Shown here piece after piece: positions 2,932 through 27,473 of a stretch of 38,034 nucleotides of DNA (the first letter of the stretch is position 1; each line of letters opens with the position of its first letter). The translations under genes and the position numbers were made by a program. The stretch is taken from positions 1 through 38,034 of the IMG/VR virus record IMGVR_UViG_3300044630_003812. One strand, 5' to 3'. The notes under the pieces were generated by a model that was not told the DNA's origin, did no database searches, and was given only the letters and a program-made list of their open reading frames with translations. This stretch comes from a virus.

Positions 2932-3234
2932 TTATTTTAACCCTATTAAGGATTTTATGAGTTTAAACAATCGTTTAAAAAAATTATCAGATTGTTTTTT
3001 ATTTTTTTTTGTTAATGATGTTACAGGTATCACATATTTACGTTTTATTTGATTATCATCAATTCTAAAATAAAGCATAGCTTGGTCCATCATTCTATCT
3101 AAATCATCGTCATCATCATGATTATAAGGTGATGGTATAAAAAAATCAGACTGAATGGTTGTTGCAGTGTGAGCTGTAAGGTTAATTTCACCAGTTTTGG
3201 AATTAATTTTCGGTTTTTTACGTGCCGCTGCCAT
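2932..3234 (-). CDS. Hypothetical protein, acidic middle and basic tail
   Basis: The start at 3234 gives MAAARKKPKINSKTGEINL (100 residues) and lies two bases after the stop of the upstream gene. An in-frame ATG at 3252 would overlap that gene and looks less natural. The protein has a basic N-terminus, a run of five Asp near residue 42, and a basic amphipathic C-terminus (FFKRLFKLIKSLIGLK). No known family. It is co-transcribed with the tail-tube-fold gene, so a virion or assembly role is plausible but unproven. Confidence 0.65.
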   Translation of the reverse strand: MAAARKKPKINSKTGEINLTAHTATTIQSDFFIPSPYNHDDDDDLDRMMDQAMLYFRIDDNQIKRKYVIPVTSLTKKNKKQSDNFFKRLFKLIKSLIGLK

Positions 3235-3236
3235 TG

Positions 3237-3584
3237 TTAATCGCATTTGCATTTACCATCTTGATTTTTACCACAATCACATGGTTTTTCATCAAGAATT
3301 ATTTCTTCATCTGGTACATTGATATCAATACCAATTGAGAAACTAGCTTTTATATCTTCAACCATTTTATTTATTTCTTCCATATCAACATCTTTAACCA
3401 TAACTGGATTGATACATTCAACTCTTTCCTCACCTTTGGTTGGAATAAAGAAAGCAAGTGCATTGGCCTTTCTTTTTGCCAAGGCATCATTAACCGAATC
3501 AGCAAAAGGTTTTATAATTTTTGGGTTTGACATCAATTCTGAATCAAGATAAAATACGATGATAAGTGGGTATTGTTTTTCCAT
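3237..3584 (-). CDS. Hypothetical protein with C-terminal cysteine cluster
   Basis: The protein has 115 residues. A hydrophobic strand near the N-terminus (PLIIVFYLD) starts what looks like a small alpha/beta domain, with a helix over residues 25-42. It ends in a cysteine-rich tail (CDCGKNQDGKCKC) that could hold a metal. A similar tail (CDCGTQDACDKC) ends the unrelated protein at 7678-8421. It is the second gene of the operon that starts at 3840. I do not recognise the family. Confidence 0.7.
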   Translation of the reverse strand: MEKQYPLIIVFYLDSELMSNPKIIKPFADSVNDALAKRKANALAFFIPTKGEERVECINPVMVKDVDMEEINKMVEDIKASFSIGIDINVPDEEIILDEKPCDCGKNQDGKCKCD

Positions 3585-3588
3585 TTTT

Positions 3589-3840
3589 TTAGTGGGTTAA
3601 TTCTTCAAGACTTAATTCTTCAATTATGTCTTCTTTATTTATTGTGTTATTATTATCCATGAAATACTTAGCGATTAACTCATTCACTCTTAAATTTTTA
3701 GCCTCATTACCAATTTCAGTATAGGCATATAATTTTTGTCCGTTAACTAACGCTACATAAATTAAATACTCAGAAATACTTTTATTCTTAAAAGTTTTGC
3801 TGGTATAACGGTCTATTTCTTTTATTAAAATTTTCATCAT
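3589..3840 (-). CDS. Small hypothetical protein, first gene of operon
   Basis: With the start at 3840 (MMKILIKEIDRYTSKTF) the product has 83 residues. The frame runs further upstream to an ATG at 3897, but that stretch covers the -7 box (TAAATTTG at 3844-3851) and the downstream terminator of the neighbouring unit, so the shorter form is preferred. It is a small mixed alpha/beta protein with an acidic C-terminus (EDIIEELSLEELTH) and no recognised domain. The box ends only three bases before the ATG, so the message may be leaderless. Confidence 0.65.
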   Translation of the reverse strand: MMKILIKEIDRYTSKTFKNKSISEYLIYVALVNGQKLYAYTEIGNEAKNLRVNELIAKYFMDNNNTINKEDIIEELSLEELTH

Positions 3841-3843
3841 AAC

Positions 3844-3874
3844 CAAATTTACCCAAAATTTTTGAAAGTGTAAA
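3844..3874 (-). promoter_or_regulatory. Candidate host-type promoter with weak -33
   Basis: The minus strand has CTTT, 20 bases, then TAAATTTG. The -7 box fits the consensus but the -33 has T in place of the final G. The ATG at 3840 follows after three bases. Confidence 0.45.
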
Positions 3875-3883
3875 GGGTAAAAA

Positions 3884-3911
3884 TAAAAAAACCCCATAAA
3901 TGGAGCTTTTT
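3884..3911 (-). terminator. Rho-independent terminator of the 3.9-4.06 kb RNA unit
   Basis: On the minus strand CUCCA pairs with UGGGG (one U-G pair) around a four-base loop, flanked upstream by AAAAAG and followed by seven T. It would end transcription of the non-coding stretch or small ORF just upstream. Confidence 0.6.
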
Positions 3912-3999
3912 ATTTTGTGTTTATCCAAGATGTTGGGGTATTTACTTCTAACCCTGTAATGAAGTTTTGCCGATTTAGATTAATAGGAATCAGCTCCAT
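3910..3999 (-). CDS. Possible 29-residue small ORF
   Basis: ATG at 3999 opens a 29-codon frame (starts MELIPINLNRQNF, ends TSWINTK) that stops just before the terminator at 3884-3911. Its composition is protein-like and the placement before the terminator is neat. However, its last codons form the 3' arm of the long stem described for the structured RNA, and no promoter or homologue is evident. Either the peptide or the RNA, or both, may be real. Confidence 0.3.
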   Translation of the reverse strand: MELIPINLNRQNFITGLEVNTPTSWINTK

Positions 4000-4068
4000 A
4001 GTTAATTTGATTTGTATTTGTTTTTAGATTGCAGAATACATCTTTTAACGATAAACACAAAAAAGATA

Positions 4069-4085
4069 AAGACGCTAAGCATCTT
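4069..4085 (-). terminator. Terminator of the vWA gene
   Basis: On the minus strand AAGATGC and GCGTCTT form a seven-pair stem (one G-U) with a three-base loop, followed by TATCTTTTTT. It lies about 14 bases after the stop codon of the vWA gene. Confidence 0.7.
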
Positions 4086-4098
4086 CACCCTTTTAAAT

Positions 4099-5559
4099 TT
4101 AGACTGTTACTACTGAGTAACGTGGTGACCCAATAACTTCCATCATCATAGAGAATGGAGTCATTTCCTTACCAGCCAAAAGACTAGTAAGCAACGATGG
4201 GCTAAACCCACTAACGAGGCAAGTACCATTCTTGTCAAATTGTACTGGTTTGTTACTGTCACTTCTTGATTGGATGTTCCAGTATACAATCTTAGGTACT
4301 ACGTACCCAGCTTCTGTATACATATTCTCAATCATTTCTTGAGCAGTGTCATCCCAAGATGGTCTTCTAGAACCCCAACCACTACCACGAACAGCTTCAT
4401 TGAATTCCATGTCTGAAAGTATCAACATCATTGTTGGCATTTCTGAAGGTTCAACATTCGCACCTACCGCTTTTTCAAGCAATACTTGGAAAGCACCTTG
4501 CAAGTTGGTTGAACCACCCCATTTAGCACTAGCCATTTGATTGTAACGTTCGTTAAGGTTACCCTTGACAACTTCCAAACTTGGTGAGTCATGGAATGTT
4601 ATAAACGCATCTTTGAATGGTCCAACGTTTCTTTCTGAAATATACAATCCCAAAGAGATTGCAACATCCATACAAGTTACGTTAGCGTTACTGCCAGCTG
4701 GACAGTCCATTGAACTTGATACGTCAACCAAAGGAAGAACTCTTTCTTCGTTGCCATCCATATAGTTTGGCAAGGCATCCCATTGTGCGTTGGCACCACG
4801 AGTATTTCCTTGTTTTAAGTTTTTAATGATATCGTATGGGTATACAGCACCAGCATTAATCTTGGTTTCACCTTTTTCAAGGCTAGTCAAGTATGCACCG
4901 AAACGGTCATTGTCATGTTTGCTGAACGCTTTCATCAAGTCGCTCATAGCCTTGGAAGGCAACTTAGAGTATTCGATGATTGACCACTCATTAGCACACA
5001 TCAATTGCTCAACGGTGTTAGAGTTTTCAACCAACATCTTACGGTATTCCTTTGGAGACATACCTAAAAAGTTTCTGAGTGCGTGAGCTTGTCTTTTAGC
5101 TTCACGGTTTTTTACATTTGGACGTGGCATCCACTTAGCACAAAGGCCATTCTTATCAGCTAATCCCTTGGCGATAACTTCCAACGCATCGTTCTCCAAT
5201 GGAGTTCCGATAAACACCAAAAGGTCATCCCATCTACCGAATTCACTCACAAGGTGAATGTTCTTACGCATAACCTCTGTGCGGTTGTTTGCAAGGTAGG
5301 TCACGATATCCTTGAATATTTGTCTTTCACCAGCACCACCACGCACGTCACGTGCCCAAAACAATAAACGCATAGCTGTCAATTGGTTTTCACCAAAAGC
5401 CTTTGTAAATGCATTTATAAGACGAGTTTTATCTTGTCCTCTCATAGCCCCTATTTGGAAGAACAAATCTACACAGTTGTTAAGCGATGTTGAGTTGGTC
5501 GACATACCGTTTTCGGTACGTGAATTTTTTGTTTGCATTGCAGCCAATAAAGTACTCAT
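4099..5559 (-). CDS. DUF2828-type protein: helical N-domain plus vWA (Ro60-like architecture)
   Basis: The 486-residue protein has an alpha-helical N-terminal half with conserved-looking RDVRGGAGERQIF (70-82) and GRWDDLL (108-114), and a C-terminal von Willebrand A domain. The metal-binding MIDAS is complete: D279-S281-S283, T351 (WGGSTN) and D383 (LSDMEF). This matches DUF2828, known from phages and eukaryotes. The layout of helical repeats followed by vWA is also that of the RNA-binding Ro60/Rsr proteins, which bind Y RNA and misfolded RNA. I infer, but cannot show, an RNA-related role. It is a single-gene unit with a strong promoter (5600-5630), a 40-base leader and its own terminator. A stem-closed non-coding stretch lies directly downstream. 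Confidence 0.8.
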   Translation of the reverse strand: MSTLLAAMQTKNSRTENGMSTNSTSLNNCVDLFFQIGAMRGQDKTRLINAFTKAFGENQLTAMRLLFWARDVRGGAGERQIFKDIVTYLANNRTEVMRKNIHLVSEFGRWDDLLVFIGTPLENDALEVIAKGLADKNGLCAKWMPRPNVKNREAKRQAHALRNFLGMSPKEYRKMLVENSNTVEQLMCANEWSIIEYSKLPSKAMSDLMKAFSKHDNDRFGAYLTSLEKGETKINAGAVYPYDIIKNLKQGNTRGANAQWDALPNYMDGNEERVLPLVDVSSSMDCPAGSNANVTCMDVAISLGLYISERNVGPFKDAFITFHDSPSLEVVKGNLNERYNQMASAKWGGSTNLQGAFQVLLEKAVGANVEPSEMPTMMLILSDMEFNEAVRGSGWGSRRPSWDDTAQEMIENMYTEAGYVVPKIVYWNIQSRSDSNKPVQFDKNGTCLVSGFSPSLLTSLLAGKEMTPFSMMMEVIGSPRYSVVTV

Positions 5560-5599
5560 AAAATTTGGTTTAAAGATTGGTTGATTGTGTTAAGTGATG

Positions 5600-5630
5600 C
5601 AAAGATACGAATTTTTATATCACTTGTCAA
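5600..5630 (-). promoter_or_regulatory. Host-type promoter for the vWA gene (TTG-N20-TATCTTTG)
   Basis: CTTG, 20 bases, G-TATCTTTG on the minus strand; the -33 lies within the last codons of the RNase HII gene. The box is 40 bases from the ATG at 5559. Confidence 0.85.
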
Positions 5631-6246
5631 GTTTTTTTACAAAATTCTTTACATATTGGTCTCTATGGTATTTATTTTTTCCATATTTTTTTAAAGCAAT
5701 GATATGGTCTGGTGTTAAATAACCTTTATTATTACACCAATTGTATTCTGGGTGAAGCAAATGTAACTTGCACATGTATTCGTCACGTCTTACCTTGGCT
5801 ATGATAGCAGCGGCGGCAATGCATGTATAAGTGTCATCACCCTTTGGAACTAGTGTAAGATTTGAATTGTCGGCATTGGTACCTGTGTAGTCTTCCCAAA
5901 CAGTACCATCAACTAGTAGATATTCTGGTTTAATACTAAGTTCATCAATACACTTGTGCATGGTTTTGAACGTAGCTTTGTTGATGCCAAAGTCATTGAT
6001 ATCTTTGATAGAACCAGTATGACATGATATTGAAATTGCGTTGACTATTATGAGCTCATACGCTTCTTTTCTTTGTTTTTCGGATAGTTTTTTGGAGTCA
6101 CGAATAAGTGGTGATTTAAAACCCCTAGGCATTATAACCGCTGCTGTAACCACAGGTCCAGCACCACAACCTCTTCCAACTTCATCTAAACCAGCAACAT
6201 AATCATGTTCTGGCCAATCTTCCAATAATTTACGTTCTTTCACCAT
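5620..6246 (-). CDS. rnhB: Ribonuclease HII
   Basis: This 208-residue protein carries all the RNase HII signatures: GLDEVGRG with D21 and E22, RDSKKLSEKQR (50-59), the LLVDG strand with D113, and AAAAIIAKVRRDEYM with D155. These give the four metal-binding acids that cut RNA in RNA-DNA hybrids and at single ribonucleotides. The length is normal (E. coli 198). In phage replication it would remove primers or ribonucleotides. The -7 box ends four bases before the only plausible ATG, so the message is probably leaderless. It is a single gene, and the vWA promoter overlaps its 3' end. Confidence 0.95.
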   Translation of the reverse strand: MVKERKLLEDWPEHDYVAGLDEVGRGCGAGPVVTAAVIMPRGFKSPLIRDSKKLSEKQRKEAYELIIVNAISISCHTGSIKDINDFGINKATFKTMHKCIDELSIKPEYLLVDGTVWEDYTGTNADNSNLTLVPKGDDTYTCIAAAAIIAKVRRDEYMCKLHLLHPEYNWCNNKGYLTPDHIIALKKYGKNKYHRDQYVKNFVKKLDK

Positions 6247-14984: not shown

Positions 14985-17960
14985 TTAAGCTTTCTGACTT
15001 TGAACCACATCTTTATTTTTGGTATTTCTAGCCGCTTCTTCATCAATTTTACTAATTATGAATTGTGCTACTTTAGATATTACTTCTAAATTACTTTGTA
15101 TTTTTTCCTTGTTAGCCTTCCATAAAGCCAAATATGTTGTATGATGCGATACTGGAAGTCCGTAGTGTTTTAATACCACATAAGATACGCTTTCAGCTTG
15201 AAGTTCTTTCAAAGCACTACTACCTCTAACTTCGTCATCTTGATAGAAGATAGATTTGGCTTTAAAGTGCATCAATTCATGAGCAATTTCATGTATCATA
15301 GTTGATAACCTACCAGCACCAGATACGTCCGATGATATGTTGATATGGTCGCCAGCAGCAAAACCTTTCTCACCACCCTTGGCATCTGATTGAGTAACTT
15401 TGATACCCAAATCTGAAGCAACTTCAGAAGCATACATGAATAATTCATCAGCTGTTTCTGATGGTGTGTTGTCACCCCACCATTGTGGTTCATCTGGTAT
15501 ATCACCTCTTTCATCCATTGGTTCGGTATCTGAAATGTCAAAAACGTTAACTGCTCTAAACCCTCTCACATCTTTATCACGATTAAATTCACCCATACCC
15601 AATGAAGGTTCATCATCTGGAACTGATTTGTCTTTGTTTATAATAGGGGCCAAAATAGTAATAGCTTTAGCACCTTTCTTAACTTGTCTGAATTTTTCTT
15701 GCCATTTTTTATATGAACCAACTCGTTTCGCATCTGGTCTTTGAATGAAAATAAGTATTCTATTAAAGAAACTGTAATCGTGGAATTTAGAGAAGAAAGT
15801 TAAATATCTTCTGATTTCAGCTGATAGAGCTGCTTCATCAGTAGCATTGGCCAAATCAGATATATATTGGTCCAATTTAGCTTTCAACAAACTTTTATTA
15901 TCAGCTTCTGAACTGTCAATAGCTTCTTCTACGTCTTCCAGTGTGCTAATAAGGTATTCAGCTTTATTGATTAATGAAAGTGTTTGTTTAGCCACTTCTA
16001 GTTTATCTGTAGGGATGGCCCAATTGGTGCCTGTCCAGATGAAACCGTTTTGTTTTAGTACGTTTTTATTTGAAAAGGTTTCTTGACTAGCAGCTTTGCC
16101 TTCCAAGTCTGAAATAACATTAAGCTTGTTATTTTTTTTATCGTGTTGAAGCTTTAGGGCTTCTTTAATAAAAGATTCTGATAAAGATGGAGCATTGATG
16201 TTGCCTTGGGTTTTCTTTAATTTAACCACATTATCTACGGCACCTTGACTACAACCAACACCAGCTGGTTTGTTGTTTAATTTTGTACAATCATTAAATT
16301 CAACAAAAGCACCGTTAGCATACTGAGTTTTTTTTTCTGCGTTGGTTTTCTTTGAATTCTTAAAACTACCATTACGATTTATTCCTGGTAAAGCATTTGC
16401 ATCATAAGCACCAACACTACCACTACCAGCTGTTGTTTCAGTCAAAGATTCTTTATACCAATTACCAATTAATAATGGGTCTATACCTCTTTTTTGAAGA
16501 TTATTTTTAGATGTGATTAAAAAATCAGATAATTTATTTTCTGGGTATTGGTCTTTTAAATCCAATGATGTATAATGTTTAATTTCATCATTTTCAACAC
16601 CAGTATAATCCCAACCATTGGCTATTTTATTAGAATCCTTAAAAAGTGCAAAATGTGTATAGCCGTCACCCAAACCTTCACCAACAACTGGTACATTCAA
16701 TTTATTGGTATCTACTGGCATTTCTTTTTTTATCATTGGCATACTCAAGGCACCAGTGAATGAACCAGACGATGCCGCACCAGTCATCTCTTCAAGACCA
16801 TTAGGTGATAAAACCTTAACAATTGATTTGCTTTTATCGTATAATGATATAAGTTCATTTTTTAAAGGTTCGTCAATTTTAACCAACTCATCACCAGATT
16901 CAAAAGAATCAACTCCATTTCCTTTAGATAAACTATTCAAATTAGCATTTATATATCTTTCAAGCACATCCCTATCAATTTCAAAATCACCATATTCGTA
17001 TTCTGGATAACCATCTTCATCTTTACCAACATATTTTTTTTCAACTTCAGCATAATCAAAGAATTTATCTTTATCGATAAAGTCATAATTAAACACATAT
17101 AACACCCCATTTTTACTTTTTAAAATAGCTATTTCACTATTATAAGCTATTGCTATTAATTGAATATTTTTAGGTGTAATTGGTTCTTTATATTCAACAT
17201 CTTGATTCCATGGAGAATTAGGGTCATTTTCAGTACCAGCTGGATAATTGCTAGCTTCTGTTTCCATTTGAGGTTCAGAACCCATTAGATTGTGTAATTC
17301 GTTTTCAACAGCTTGGATGGCTTTTTCTGGGCTTCCAGATGTTTTAGAAAGTTCGTATTTACCGTTGTCACCAACAATCAAACCTTTGTTTAATAATGCA
17401 TCGCAAATATCGTCAAATGTCAAATCATGTTCAACCCAAAATGGTGAGAAAATTTCTGATTTACGGTATAAATATTTTATTAATTCTATGGTTTCTTTTT
17501 TGATAGAGTCATCAACTCTAGTTAAACCATCACTCATATCAGTATTTTCCTTGATGAGCCCAGAAGCAAACAATCTATTATATTGCTCTTTGGTAATTTT
17601 AACTATATTTTTTTTTGATTCTTTAAGTGCTTTGGTTAACGATTTCTTTTCAAACACTATTGTAGGGTCAATAGATGCAATTGCATTTTTGATATGTGGG
17701 AATTTGTATTCACTAACAGTACCAACTATTTTTCCTGATGTTTCGTAAAAACTAAGATTTGAGTCTGGGTCTTTTTTTTTGATACTACTAATAACAAAAT
17801 CATGTTTTTTTTCAACGATACCATTATAAATAACAACACGGATTGGATTTGCTCCTAATGAACTACCAACTGATTTTAAACCAGACTCATCATCATTTTC
17901 GTTTATCTTTTTAATATTCAATAATTTAGATTGTCTTTCTGTAATCTTAAGTTTTTTCAT
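14985..17960 (-). CDS. Large virion-type protein with C-terminal ArdC-like antirestriction/metallopeptidase module
   Basis: The 991-residue protein opens with MKKLKITERQSKLLNIKKIN; the motif returns near residue 125-150 (KITKEQYNRLFASGLIKEN), a visible duplication. Residues about 240-256 hold NYPAGTENDPNSPWNQ, shared with the neighbouring acidic protein. A long middle has Gly/Ser-rich linkers (TGAASSGSFTGAL; TAGSGSVGAYD). From about residue 714 the sequence matches ArdC: an N-domain (YSFFNRILIFIQRPDA, KKWQEKFRQVKKGAKAI) and a zinc metallopeptidase with HEIAH at 890-894 and a third-ligand candidate Glu in ELQAES. ArdC binds single-stranded DNA and protects incoming DNA from restriction. The fusion to an N-terminus with (I/L)xE sites suggests it is packed in the head and injected; that is inference. 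Confidence 0.85.
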   Translation of the reverse strand: MKKLKITERQSKLLNIKKINENDDESGLKSVGSSLGANPIRVVIYNGIVEKKHDFVISSIKKKDPDSNLSFYETSGKIVGTVSEYKFPHIKNAIASIDPTIVFEKKSLTKALKESKKNIVKITKEQYNRLFASGLIKENTDMSDGLTRVDDSIKKETIELIKYLYRKSEIFSPFWVEHDLTFDDICDALLNKGLIVGDNGKYELSKTSGSPEKAIQAVENELHNLMGSEPQMETEASNYPAGTENDPNSPWNQDVEYKEPITPKNIQLIAIAYNSEIAILKSKNGVLYVFNYDFIDKDKFFDYAEVEKKYVGKDEDGYPEYEYGDFEIDRDVLERYINANLNSLSKGNGVDSFESGDELVKIDEPLKNELISLYDKSKSIVKVLSPNGLEEMTGAASSGSFTGALSMPMIKKEMPVDTNKLNVPVVGEGLGDGYTHFALFKDSNKIANGWDYTGVENDEIKHYTSLDLKDQYPENKLSDFLITSKNNLQKRGIDPLLIGNWYKESLTETTAGSGSVGAYDANALPGINRNGSFKNSKKTNAEKKTQYANGAFVEFNDCTKLNNKPAGVGCSQGAVDNVVKLKKTQGNINAPSLSESFIKEALKLQHDKKNNKLNVISDLEGKAASQETFSNKNVLKQNGFIWTGTNWAIPTDKLEVAKQTLSLINKAEYLISTLEDVEEAIDSSEADNKSLLKAKLDQYISDLANATDEAALSAEIRRYLTFFSKFHDYSFFNRILIFIQRPDAKRVGSYKKWQEKFRQVKKGAKAITILAPIINKDKSVPDDEPSLGMGEFNRDKDVRGFRAVNVFDISDTEPMDERGDIPDEPQWWGDNTPSETADELFMYASEVASDLGIKVTQSDAKGGEKGFAAGDHINISSDVSGAGRLSTMIHEIAHELMHFKAKSIFYQDDEVRGSSALKELQAESVSYVVLKHYGLPVSHHTTYLALWKANKEKIQSNLEVISKVAQFIISKIDEEAARNTKNKDVVQSQKA
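17202..17234 (-). repeat. 33-bp direct repeat, copy 2
   Basis: Identical to 13543-13575. Flanking bases diverge quickly, so the match is a conserved coding module or a recent conversion tract. Confidence 0.9.
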
Positions 17961-21441: not shown

Positions 21442-22266
21442 TTAGTTTATCAAGCAAAATAAATTATGAGCATTATGTCTTAATTTTCTTATCGCTTTTT
21501 CTTTTATTTGTCTAATACGTTCTTTGGTCAAACCGTATTTTTCACCTATAGCTTCCAACGTCATTGATTCAAAATTTGTGTTGATTCCAAAATAACATTC
21601 GATTATAACCCTTTCTCTTTCGTCAAGAACTGATAACGTGTTGTTTAACTCTGTTTTGATTCTTTTATCAACAACCAATCTATCTTCTTCCTCCTCAACA
21701 CTAACCAATTCAATAAGCTCATCACCATCTTCATTTATCGTTTCGTTTAATGAAGAACATTTAGGATAATGAACCAAAACCATCACTTCGTTATTTTTAC
21801 CAAAGATTTCACCATATACTGGTTCTCTCTCATTTTCCATTTCAAACTTGACAATTTCTTTTTTTAAATGTGAAATTTTATTGATGACATTCGCTGGTAA
21901 TCTTACCATTCTAGCGTTATCATTTAAACTTTGTATTATTGATTGTTTTATCCACCATACAGCATAAGAGATAAACCTAAAACCTTTTTTGTGGTCGAAT
22001 CTTGTAGCGGCTTTAACCAAACCGTAGTTACCTTCACTAATTAAATCTGAAAGTGATAACCCTTGACCTTGATAATCTTTTGCGATTGAAACCACAAATT
22101 TTAAATTTGCCTTTACTAATTTATCAACTGCTGATTGGTCACCTTCGTTTATTCTTCTCGCCAATTCAACTTCTTCTTTTGGTGTTAAAATGACTGATTT
22201 TCTTACGTCTTTAAAATACTTTGAAATACTATCATCAGCATCAAAATTTATAAACTTTTTACTCAT
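21442..22266 (-). CDS. rpoD: RpoD-like sigma-70 factor
   Basis: The 274-residue sigma factor is short, like Bacteroidetes RpoD. Region 1.2 (SISKYFKDVRKSVILTPKEE), region 2 (NLKFVVSIAKDYQGQGLSLS, DLISEGNYGLVKAATRFD, FRFISYAVWWIKQSI), a region 3 and a region 4 helix-turn-helix (TLEAIGEKYGLTKERIRQIK) are all present. It would redirect host RNA polymerase. As its DNA-binding regions look like the host factor, it may read TAnnTTTG promoters; whether it serves these or the GATATTTATAA class is open. It is a single gene with its own promoter (box TATATTTA, spacer 19, the least canonical of the set) and terminator. Confidence 0.93.
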   Translation of the reverse strand: MSKKFINFDADDSISKYFKDVRKSVILTPKEEVELARRINEGDQSAVDKLVKANLKFVVSIAKDYQGQGLSLSDLISEGNYGLVKAATRFDHKKGFRFISYAVWWIKQSIIQSLNDNARMVRLPANVINKISHLKKEIVKFEMENEREPVYGEIFGKNNEVMVLVHYPKCSSLNETINEDGDELIELVSVEEEEDRLVVDKRIKTELNNTLSVLDERERVIIECYFGINTNFESMTLEAIGEKYGLTKERIRQIKEKAIRKLRHNAHNLFCLIN

Positions 22267-25886: not shown

Positions 25887-26695
25887 AAATTTGTTATTTT
25901 TTCATTACCAGTCTCTAAGTCTTCTAGTGACTTTATTTTAAATTGATATAACGGGTGTTTATTTTCTACGTCATGTTCTGTAAATGTTTTATCCTCAACA
26001 TCCCACATAAGAAACCCATGTTTGCTTACATTCTCACCGAAATTTTGTTGGATAAGTGAAGAGGGCATAACTATTTGGATGTCATTAAACATTAATTTTT
26101 GACGTTGGTGAATATCTCCACACATAACTAGGTCACACCCATCAAATTGCTCTAATTCAACCCCATGGTCTATAGTATAACCTATATCTGTTTTGGCACC
26201 TATTAGTGGACCGTGGAATAAACCAATATATGTTTTGTCTGAACCAAATTCAACTCTTGCTGATTCAATGTCTGGTCGTTCGTTGTTTTCAAAAATGGAA
26301 TAAACACACCATACAATGTTATCATCCAAATAACATTTGCTTTCTTTGAAGTAGTTGATGTTTTCGTCTGGTAAAAATTGAACCATTGGGGTAATGCTGT
26401 CCATACGGTCTTTATTGTTCTCCAAAAGGTCATGGTTCCCAGCTATTATAACCACTGGAGCTATTTGTTCTAAGCTTCTTAGTAACCAAGTTCCCAAGAT
26501 AAGTTGTTCATTGGATATGATGATTTTTTGGTGAACTAGGTCACCAGCAATTACAACCCTTATTTCATCTCTATCGTAACCTTCTACTAGTACTTTTATA
26601 TCTTTGATTAGAGTCTTGAAAACATCTTTGTATTCATCATGGAGTCTGAATGTTCTGATGTGTATGTCAGCTAAATGTATTATCCTTTTAACCAT
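25883..26695 (-). CDS. sbcD: SbcD/Mre11-type nuclease (T4 gp47-like)
   Basis: The 270-residue calcineurin-like phosphoesterase has all five metal-binding motifs: LADIHI (D10, H12), AGDLVH (D52), GNHD (87-89), FHGP near residue 160 and CGDIHQRQ near 197. It is the nuclease partner of the SbcC-like protein encoded two genes downstream; the complex trims or opens DNA ends. At 270 residues it is shorter than T4 gp47 (about 340), so the C-terminal capping region is reduced. It overlaps the PD-(D/E)XK nuclease gene by eight bases. Confidence 0.93.
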   Translation of the reverse strand: MVKRIIHLADIHIRTFRLHDEYKDVFKTLIKDIKVLVEGYDRDEIRVVIAGDLVHQKIIISNEQLILGTWLLRSLEQIAPVVIIAGNHDLLENNKDRMDSITPMVQFLPDENINYFKESKCYLDDNIVWCVYSIFENNERPDIESARVEFGSDKTYIGLFHGPLIGAKTDIGYTIDHGVELEQFDGCDLVMCGDIHQRQKLMFNDIQIVMPSSLIQQNFGENVSKHGFLMWDVEDKTFTEHDVENKHPLYQFKIKSLEDLETGNEKITNL

Positions 26696-27473
26696 TATCT
26701 TTCATTATATTATAGTGATGTAATTCTATTAATTTCTGAGCTTCGTGCTTGAGGTACATTATTTGTATTTTTTCAAATGATTCTTTTACTTTATCCCAAT
26801 ACAAAACATATATTTGTCTACACTTACGGTTTGGGAATTCCATTTCATATAATCTAGCATACACGCTTAACTGTAAGGTGTATATTGACCATTGGCAAGA
26901 TTGCAAATGGTCAAACGGTTTATAAAGAGTTTCAAAACCATAAGGATTGAAGAAATTGAAAACACGATTGGTTTTGTAATCACCAACGTCAAAGAAAACA
27001 TCGTTGATATCTATGATAAGGTCGGAAGTACCAGCCAACTGATATTGCTCTGAAAAAAGAATACGTTCTGGCCACATTGCCATACCTTCATCAATGTTCA
27101 ACGCATTATAACCATCAATTACTTTTTGTTCAAACGCACCCTCATTTGTTTCTTCTGGGAAATACCATTTATCAGCCAATAAATAACGCTCAACAATATC
27201 ATGAACCCTTGTACCATAAACATTGGCTTCATCATTAAGAAATTGCCAGTAGTCTAGTATTTGTTGTTGAGTCATTCCAATATAACGTTCTTGTTTAACC
27301 TTATCTGGTTGTCTGGTTATAGCCAAAGAAACAGCTTCTGAATCAAAGTGAGGTTCTATTGATGCCAGAGTTGTGGTGACAGATTTGTATATCTTACCTG
27401 TTTCTCTGTGATGATACTTATGTGCGATTGGTTCGAGATAAATAATTGATTCCCATTTTTTTATTCTACTCAT
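26688..27473 (-). CDS. PD-(D/E)XK nuclease (RecB/Cas4-like)
   Basis: The 261-residue protein has a RecB/Cas4-type nuclease core. GTRVHDIVERYL gives H91, the strand LAGTSDLI gives D151, and FFDVGDYKT gives D165 and K167; a QLSVYARLYE helix follows (the Q-x-x-x-Y motif). No four-cysteine iron-sulfur site is seen, so it is not a full Cas4. It heads the operon with SbcD and SbcC and would act as an exonuclease in recombination or host DNA breakdown. It has a canonical promoter, 12 bases from the ATG. Confidence 0.87.
   Translation of the reverse strand: MSRIKKWESIIYLEPIAHKYHHRETGKIYKSVTTTLASIEPHFDSEAVSLAITRQPDKVKQERYIGMTQQQILDYWQFLNDEANVYGTRVHDIVERYLLADKWYFPEETNEGAFEQKVIDGYNALNIDEGMAMWPERILFSEQYQLAGTSDLIIDINDVFFDVGDYKTNRVFNFFNPYGFETLYKPFDHLQSCQWSIYTLQLSVYARLYEMEFPNRKCRQIYVLYWDKVKESFEKIQIMYLKHEAQKLIELHHYNIMKDNG

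Follow-up and report, generated by a model that had tools for sequence, protein, structure and literature searches.

The locus examined here, at positions 3,884 to 5,559 of IMG/VR virus record IMGVR_UViG_3300044630_003812 (38,034 nucleotides in all, hereafter the window), probably encodes a phage ribonucleoprotein composed of a Ro60-fold ring protein (DUF2828/DUF7788, PHROG 850) and a noncoding RNA of about 150 nt. From Ro/Y biology we infer that the protein would bind this RNA, that the RNA would act in trans and that the particle would serve RNA decay, quality control or repair. The protein has a Ro-like fold, the RNA beside it is conserved and covaries, a short RNA module is associated with genes of this type, and copies of the module occur in tandem and in tRNA arrays, together suggesting one widespread, overlooked protein-RNA particle across phages and bacteria. 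A sequence-only reading of the window had proposed a Ro60-like vWA protein with an adjacent stem-closed RNA of Y RNA type; its observation is confirmed here and its interpretation is partly supported. It missed both the stem-ACAGCAA module and the resemblance to Dictyostelium Class I RNA described below.

The 486-aa product gives a full-length profile match to PHROG 850, ‘RNA-binding protein’ (E 1.7e-148, residues 1-482), and Pfam places it in DUF7788 and DUF2828. In an AlphaFold model built from 62 relatives (pLDDT 75.9, pTM 0.60), a helical-repeat, ring-like domain is combined with a vWA fold carrying a metal ion-dependent adhesion site (MIDAS), as in Ro60/Rsr (TROVE) proteins. The MIDAS residues D279, S281, S283, T351 and D383 (DxSxS...T...D) are invariant across the 62 sequences, in line with the helical N-terminal part and MIDAS vWA domain that had been read from the translation. 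When the model was compared with the PDB by Foldseek, only four structures were matched at E<=1e-3, all of them Ro/TROVE, namely the TROVE domain 9kop (4e-9), Thermus phage phiLo Ro60 (9l5y, 2.5e-7), and Rsr and Ro (2nvo and 1yvr, 8e-7); the proposed Ro60-like architecture thus stands, though Pfam TROVE (PF05731) has no match in the window protein. Searches of the PDB with phmmer and a profile likewise gave no useful sequence-level TROVE match, the profile reaching E 0.7 at best against TROVE proteins. Because Foldseek finds only Ro/TROVE structures while the profile goes no further than this, the window protein is predicted to be Ro-like by fold, yet is not detectably TROVE by sequence. A DUF2828/PHROG 850 protein is carried by 682 phage records, mostly labelled hypothetical or simply RNA-binding and in part ‘Ro-like RNA binding protein’.

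The RNA follows this gene on the same strand, and the elements of the locus are as follows.

4099..5559 (-): gene of the Ro-like vWA protein, 486 aa; PHROG 850; Pfam DUF2828 and DUF7788; Ro60 fold via AlphaFold2/Foldseek
5583..5632 (-): Bacteroidota-type promoter-like candidate upstream of the Ro-like gene, TTG ... TATCTTTG, read by eye
4060..4094 (-): 16-bp hairpin, then a T-run, lying past the Ro-like stop codon and before the RNA; a terminator or a hairpin for processing
3913..4062 (-): structured RNA, proposed ligand of the Ro-like protein, from folding, conservation and covariation
4050..4062 (-): 5' arm of outer stem P1, TTTTGTGTTTATC, 13 bp; sequence variable, pairing kept in relatives
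3913..3925 (-): 3' arm of P1, GATAAACACAAAA, perfect complement of 4050-4062
4038..4044 (-): 5' arm of inner stem P2, AAGATGT, the module stem, from alignment and predicted fold
3927..3933 (-): 3' arm of P2, ACATCTT, then a conserved G (3926), from alignment and predicted fold
4029..4037 (-): spacer A and conserved motif TTCTGCAA (general form NNC(A/T)GCAA), from motif scans
3985..3998 (-): pseudoknot A hairpin, with stem GGA 3997-3995 / TCC 3988-3986 and loop GCTGA 3994-3990, from alignment
3969..3973 (-): partner TCGGC of the pseudoknot A second stem, pairing with 3994-3990; all five pairs covary
3936..3964 (-): pseudoknot B, with CTTC 3964-3961 paired to GAAG 3948-3945 and GGGT 3954-3951 to ACCC 3939-3936, from alignment
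3882..3911 (-): intrinsic terminator hairpin and T-run at the RNA end, in equivalent position in relatives

Both stems noticed from the letters, the perfect 13-bp P1 and the 7-bp P2, are present in the minimum-free-energy fold of 3913-4062 (-27.5 kcal/mol, compared with -18.2±3.1 for shuffled sequences; z -3.0, with 1/200 as good), and the whole 219-nt intergenic stretch folds at z -4.7, a value that 0/200 shuffles equalled. The terminator noted downstream of the RNA was located as a hairpin and T-run at about 3911-3882. The sequence-only reading was silent on the 16-bp hairpin at 4094-4060, which overlaps P1 by 3 nt and whose counterparts are present in several relatives and missing in others. 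A scan of the window region against Rfam (E<=10) gave sub-threshold low-complexity matches only, such as STnc430 at 33.7 bits with a gathering threshold of 47, and blastn of the RNA region against phage genomes gave no match. A tmRNA was considered because of the pseudoknots and the GCAA, and was rejected as ARAGORN detects none. A peptide encoded at 3910-3999 had been raised as a possible object of codon-level conservation, but this 29-aa open reading frame persists in the near-identical L001 alone, the rest of the relatives having none or unrelated frames, and hence it is no conserved coding sequence.

Selection for the structure is strongly supported in a set of 24 loci (the window and 23 close relatives, protein identity 61-94%), compared by eye and script. 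The sequence of P1 differs between groups yet its pairing persists, and P1 flanks pair with their own partners and not with those of other loci, none of 100,000 permutations reaching the observed value (23 loci); among the more distant members, five to eight have a slight P1 or none. The close relatives have in common P2, the motif and two H-type pseudoknots. The loop of the GGA/TCC hairpin of pseudoknot A pairs downstream in the variants GCCGC/GCGGC, GTCCA/TGGAC, TCCCA/TGGGA, TCTCT/AGAGA and TGTTT/AAACA, and pseudoknot B is formed by CTTC with GAAG and by GGGY with RCCC, three loci showing GAGT/ACTC. In a composite alignment of 19 sequences, assembled by hand from segments partly picked for pairing, 96.3% of cells are paired (41-48% in slid versions), double changes occur at 13 of 24 tested pairs, and the covariation score is 0.433, compared with 0.191±0.015 when shuffled and <=0.10 when slid. 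Since segments had been picked in this way, RNAalifold was also run on an independent MAFFT alignment whose flanks were fixed; unaided, it found P2, stem 1 of pseudoknot A and stem 2 of pseudoknot B, with compensatory changes at 6 of 15 pairs. The RNA at about 4062-3913 is therefore real and noncoding, and the end-closed, internally looped RNA proposed earlier is strongly supported by folding and covariation.

In distant relatives the regions downstream of the gene look wholly different, extending over several hundred nt and often containing several domains, and most still carry one module: a short stem, of 7 bp in the general definition, with (N)NNC(A/T)GCAA immediately behind it and the 3' arm mostly trailed by G or GU. 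In the 500 bp that follow the gene, the octamer TNCWGCAA has a density of 3.24/kb on the gene strand, compared with about 0.2/kb elsewhere and on the opposite strand and 0.42/kb inside the Ro-like gene. The strict module was found within 1 kb (<=1 kb) on the same strand in 34 of 54 representative loci and on the opposite strand in 1/54, whereas shuffled controls gave a mean of 1.1 loci and a maximum of 3; a good part of the 20 misses is positive through alignment or a relaxed motif. The module adjoins the gene in phages of eight host genera (Cronobacter, Escherichia, Campylobacter, Fusobacterium, Klebsiella, Enterococcus, Bacillus and Staphylococcus) and, in the relaxed form NACAGC(A/G)A, in Listeria and Mycobacterium phages, whose motif, AACAGCAA or TACAGCGA, is missed by strict TNCWGCAA scans. 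It also adjoins the gene on contigs binned to Chloroflexi, Endomicrobium, Eubacteriales, Alphaproteobacteria and Thermoactinomyces, some of which may be phage or prophage. At classical TROVE genes of six Chloroflexota genomes, no adjoining ACAGCAA module in the same orientation was accepted, and consequently the signature, as judged from motif scans, is one that tracks DUF2828-type Ro-like genes, the classical TROVE loci being without it. Chance-like matches at TROVE loci, for example TGCCGCAA in L135, were rejected; they have no AGG...CCTG ends.

Eight loci of Bacteroidota-type phages (L034, L035, L039, L045, L051, L053, L055 and L069) have a highly structured noncoding stretch of about 350 nt downstream of the Ro-like gene (for example, L034 6426-6800), with nested ACAGCAA modules and the strongly conserved blocks CCACCCCAATAGGTG, GTAGACTCTCGCGAAAGC and GAAGAAAATCACGAACAACGATCCCG; Rfam gives no match at gathering for the loci scanned.

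Terminator-like hairpins stand on both sides of the window RNA, as would suit an ordinary 3' untranslated region that has no protein partner and consists of a terminator and hairpins for mRNA stability. A conserved single-stranded motif, two covarying pseudoknots and a near-exclusive tie to one protein family are, however, unexpected of terminators, and we consider this explanation very improbable.

Protein-blind searches of IMG/VR with RNA patterns alone led back to the same genes. The pseudoknot B pattern retrieved 11 stretches, 11/11 lying 139-204 bp downstream of a Ro-like gene, and the pattern GGTTCCTTACAGCAA-N30-59-GGAACC retrieved 46, 39 of which are neighbours of the gene in the same orientation and another four share its contig, so that the gene was found for 43/46; the last three are small fragments. 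One of the 46, the module of L187, lies within a tRNA array with the vWA gene far off on the contig, and therefore speaks for a separate, trans-acting RNA. Modules distant from the gene also occur in Cronobacter phage S13 (several) and in the tRNA region of KVP40, where four that were checked show 8-10 bp of pairing and a G at the 3' end, and several different modules occur in tandem and within tRNA arrays. In G206, the phage of L187, the Ro-like gene (43941-45296) has one in-frame TAA, and the module is elsewhere in a dense tRNA array.

These copies bear on the possibility that the modules are cis-regulatory elements of the Ro-like mRNA, through which the protein autoregulates its message with no separate effector RNA. 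In many relatives the module does lie about 20 nt past the stop codon, or directly upstream of the start codon, as such an element might. We nevertheless regard autoregulation as unlikely, given that modules stand as separate units in tRNA arrays far from the gene (L187, S13 and KVP40), occur both upstream and downstream of it and in tandem with different loops, and in some phages enclose a permuted tRNA domain that autoregulation would not need.

The permuted domains are found in Cronobacter phage S13, LMP33 and FBKp34, whose loops run in the order T-arm, acceptor 3' strand, linker, acceptor 5' strand and D-arm, the arrangement of a tRNA that is open at its anticodon while its acceptor is closed. 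ARAGORN called no tRNA in unrotated or doubled modules, and permutation was therefore tested explicitly by rotating the loop and adding a dummy anticodon loop, after which a tRNA was called in all three phage loops and in 0/10 shuffled controls for each; the L080 loop was not called even after rotation. The domains lie inside RNA modules at the following positions.

L082 5654-5790: permuted tRNA-like domain
L086 5969-6094: permuted tRNA-like domain
L091 5188-5312: permuted tRNA-like domain

The S13 domain has a class-II-like variable arm, and ACCA-like letters are kept at its internal acceptor end. YrlA bacterial Y RNAs have a permuted tRNA-like architecture opened at the anticodon side, and L082, L086 and L091, alone among the relatives, resemble them in their tRNA-like modules; the window RNA instead has two pseudoknots and no tRNA mimic. 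As with bacterial Y RNAs, the window RNA gene lies beside a Ro-like gene and its ends are joined by a stem with an internal loop, but the RNAs described here are defined by a 7-bp stem and NNCAGCAA. The Y-RNA-like role proposed by the sequence-only reading is accordingly plausible, with the permuted loops of relatives and published phage Ro/Y proposals (PMC12282133) in its favour, and the double pseudoknot of the window loop and the lack of any Rfam Y RNA match, in the window and the relatives scanned, against it. DUF2828-type loci also resemble Ro/Y loci in lying near or within tRNA arrays. The DUF2828 Ro-like genes of Chloroflexi contigs L104 and L105 are inside arrays of >20 tRNA genes, and a TROVE gene (L133) likewise lies within a tRNA array.

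The Ro fold and the permuted tRNA-like loops could also indicate a canonical bacterial Y RNA/Rsr pair of TROVE type. This seems to us decidedly unlikely, as the window protein has no Pfam TROVE match but belongs to DUF2828/DUF7788, no Rfam Y RNA family is matched, and no adjoining module in the same orientation was accepted at the six Chloroflexota TROVE loci. The window system is a sister kind to the canonical pair and not the same kind.

A phage ribonucleoprotein of Ro/Y type had been thought novel in the sequence-only reading, but Ro/Y systems in phages have already been reported in outline (PMC12282133, with earlier work as cited there; PMC7824862), and thus the present system is not new as such. 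In Listeria phage CKA15, the Rsr-like CKA15_055 (HHpred to Rsr) is encoded beside tRNA genes and was found in purified virions, and abundant unannotated RNAs encoded upstream of it on the same strand were proposed to be Y RNAs; their motif, structure and conservation are not given (PMC12282133). By its description, CKA15_055 is the counterpart of the DUF2828 gene of Listeria phage LP-125. By our own estimate, the one CKA15 region given with coordinates (26,236-26,727) falls, it seems, upstream of the three LP-125 modules, and the modules are therefore not claimed as those transcripts. In LP-125 (L089), about 1 kb at 3004-4075 is mostly noncoding, has two strong promoter-like sites (3008 and 3425) and no ACAGCAA module, and probably corresponds to the unannotated CKA15 region with the highest transcription. 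RtcB-like genes and genes for RNA ligases are found near the LP-125 locus. Mycobacteriophage proteins annotated as ‘Ro-like RNA binding protein’, such as Aegeus gp60, are of the same kind as the present family by tblastn over 100% of the query; the record of Aegeus gp60 carries a protein-level annotation only, and two NNCAGC(A/G)A modules lie directly downstream. The literature searched seems to contain no description of the module, its breadth, its DUF2828-type specificity, the pseudoknotted effector or the likeness to Class I RNA.

The Class I resemblance emerged unexpectedly from an Rfam scan of Felixounavirus modules, which matched RF01414 (Dictyostelium Class I RNA) at 21.1 and 17.8 bits; such modules lie at LMP33 74456-75182. 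A top rank for the Listeria and Chloroflexi modules was then predicted and confirmed: RF01414 is the best of 4227 Rfam families for the Listeria-phage modules (23.1 bits at E 0.039 and 19.1 bits at E 0.4) and for the Chloroflexi modules (25.9 bits at E 0.012 and 21.3 bits at E 0.17). The best score, 25.9 bits, is under the gathering threshold of 41.5, and membership of RF01414 is therefore not claimed; the window RNA itself gave no RF01414 match. Class I RNAs are 42-65 nt long, with an end-joining stem, a 5' AAG, a 3' CUGU and an 11-nt motif with fixed T3, C6, C9, A10 and A11, and the paper that describes them reports none outside Dictyostelia (PMC7919456). The short modules likewise have a short end-joining stem, a 5' AAG, an ...ACAGCAA motif beside the 5' arm, a 3' CUGU and a variable remainder. 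Two Listeria modules (about 60 nt, CUGU end) agree with Class I RNAs in AAG, CUGU and length, the Staphylococcus and Felixounavirus ones nearly so, and Chloroflexi L104 and L105 carry CCTTACAGCAA exactly (motif positions per PMC7919456). The window sequence GTATTCTGCAA keeps C6, C9, A10 and A11, but not T3, and its P2 module begins with AAG, ends in CUUG and spans >110 nt, differing from Class I RNAs in length and 3' end. Another difference is that the known direct binder of the amoeba RNA is the RNA recognition motif (RRM) protein Rnp1A (PMC7919456). It is conceivable, although we would put it at somewhat below an even chance, that the Class I RNAs of social amoebae and the stem-NNCAGCAA RNAs found in phages and bacteria together form one ancient class of small noncoding RNA, in which the shared module docks a Ro60-fold DUF2828-type protein and the part that varies serves as an effector that can be swapped (tRNA mimic, double pseudoknot or large multi-domain RNA).

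Elsewhere in the window, on the minus strand, are genes for a phage-encoded sigma-70-type factor with regions 1.2, 2 and 4 (21442-22266) and for a protein of 991 aa whose C-terminal part contains an ArdC-type anti-restriction domain (14985-17960).

In the mechanism that we propose for the ribonucleoprotein, P1 and P2 join the RNA end to end, with NNC(A/T)GCAA just inside P2 and the double pseudoknot as the variable part. Stem and motif may form the docking site on the Ro-like ring and keep the RNA stable, and the part enclosed by the module would be an exchangeable effector that recruits a partner, tethers it or mimics it. This effector is a permuted tRNA-like domain in some phages, a pair of pseudoknots in the window and several hundred nt in others. 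By analogy with Ro/Y ribonucleoproteins, the particle could control whether RNA is degraded, quality-checked or repaired in infected cells, or divert these processes. Outside support comes from the abundant unannotated RNAs and virion-associated Rsr-like protein of CKA15 and from the RtcB-like and RNA ligase genes by the LP-125 locus. Several points weigh against this proposal. Confidence in the protein model is moderate and Pfam TROVE fails; Rfam Y RNA families do not match; the 19-sequence composite was built by hand; the RNA starts close behind the protein gene and could possibly be part of its mRNA; and DUF2828 loci L084, L085, L102, L107, L109 and L110 have no module in the scanned stretches, with no convincing one in Erwinia L085/L196 and Aeromonas L084.

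With these results, DUF2828/PHROG 850 proteins gain a candidate RNA partner and a testable candidate binding motif. Scattered remarks on phage Ro-like proteins become a family with an RNA signature, a negative control in the TROVE loci and swappable effectors that include circularly permuted tRNAs. If the Class I resemblance is real, the claim that these RNAs are unique to social amoebae would be reopened and a protein partner suggested for them; were the two indeed one class, a phage and bacterial ribonucleoprotein would have its eukaryotic outpost in the Class I RNAs of dictyostelids, which would then not be an invention of multicellular amoebae.
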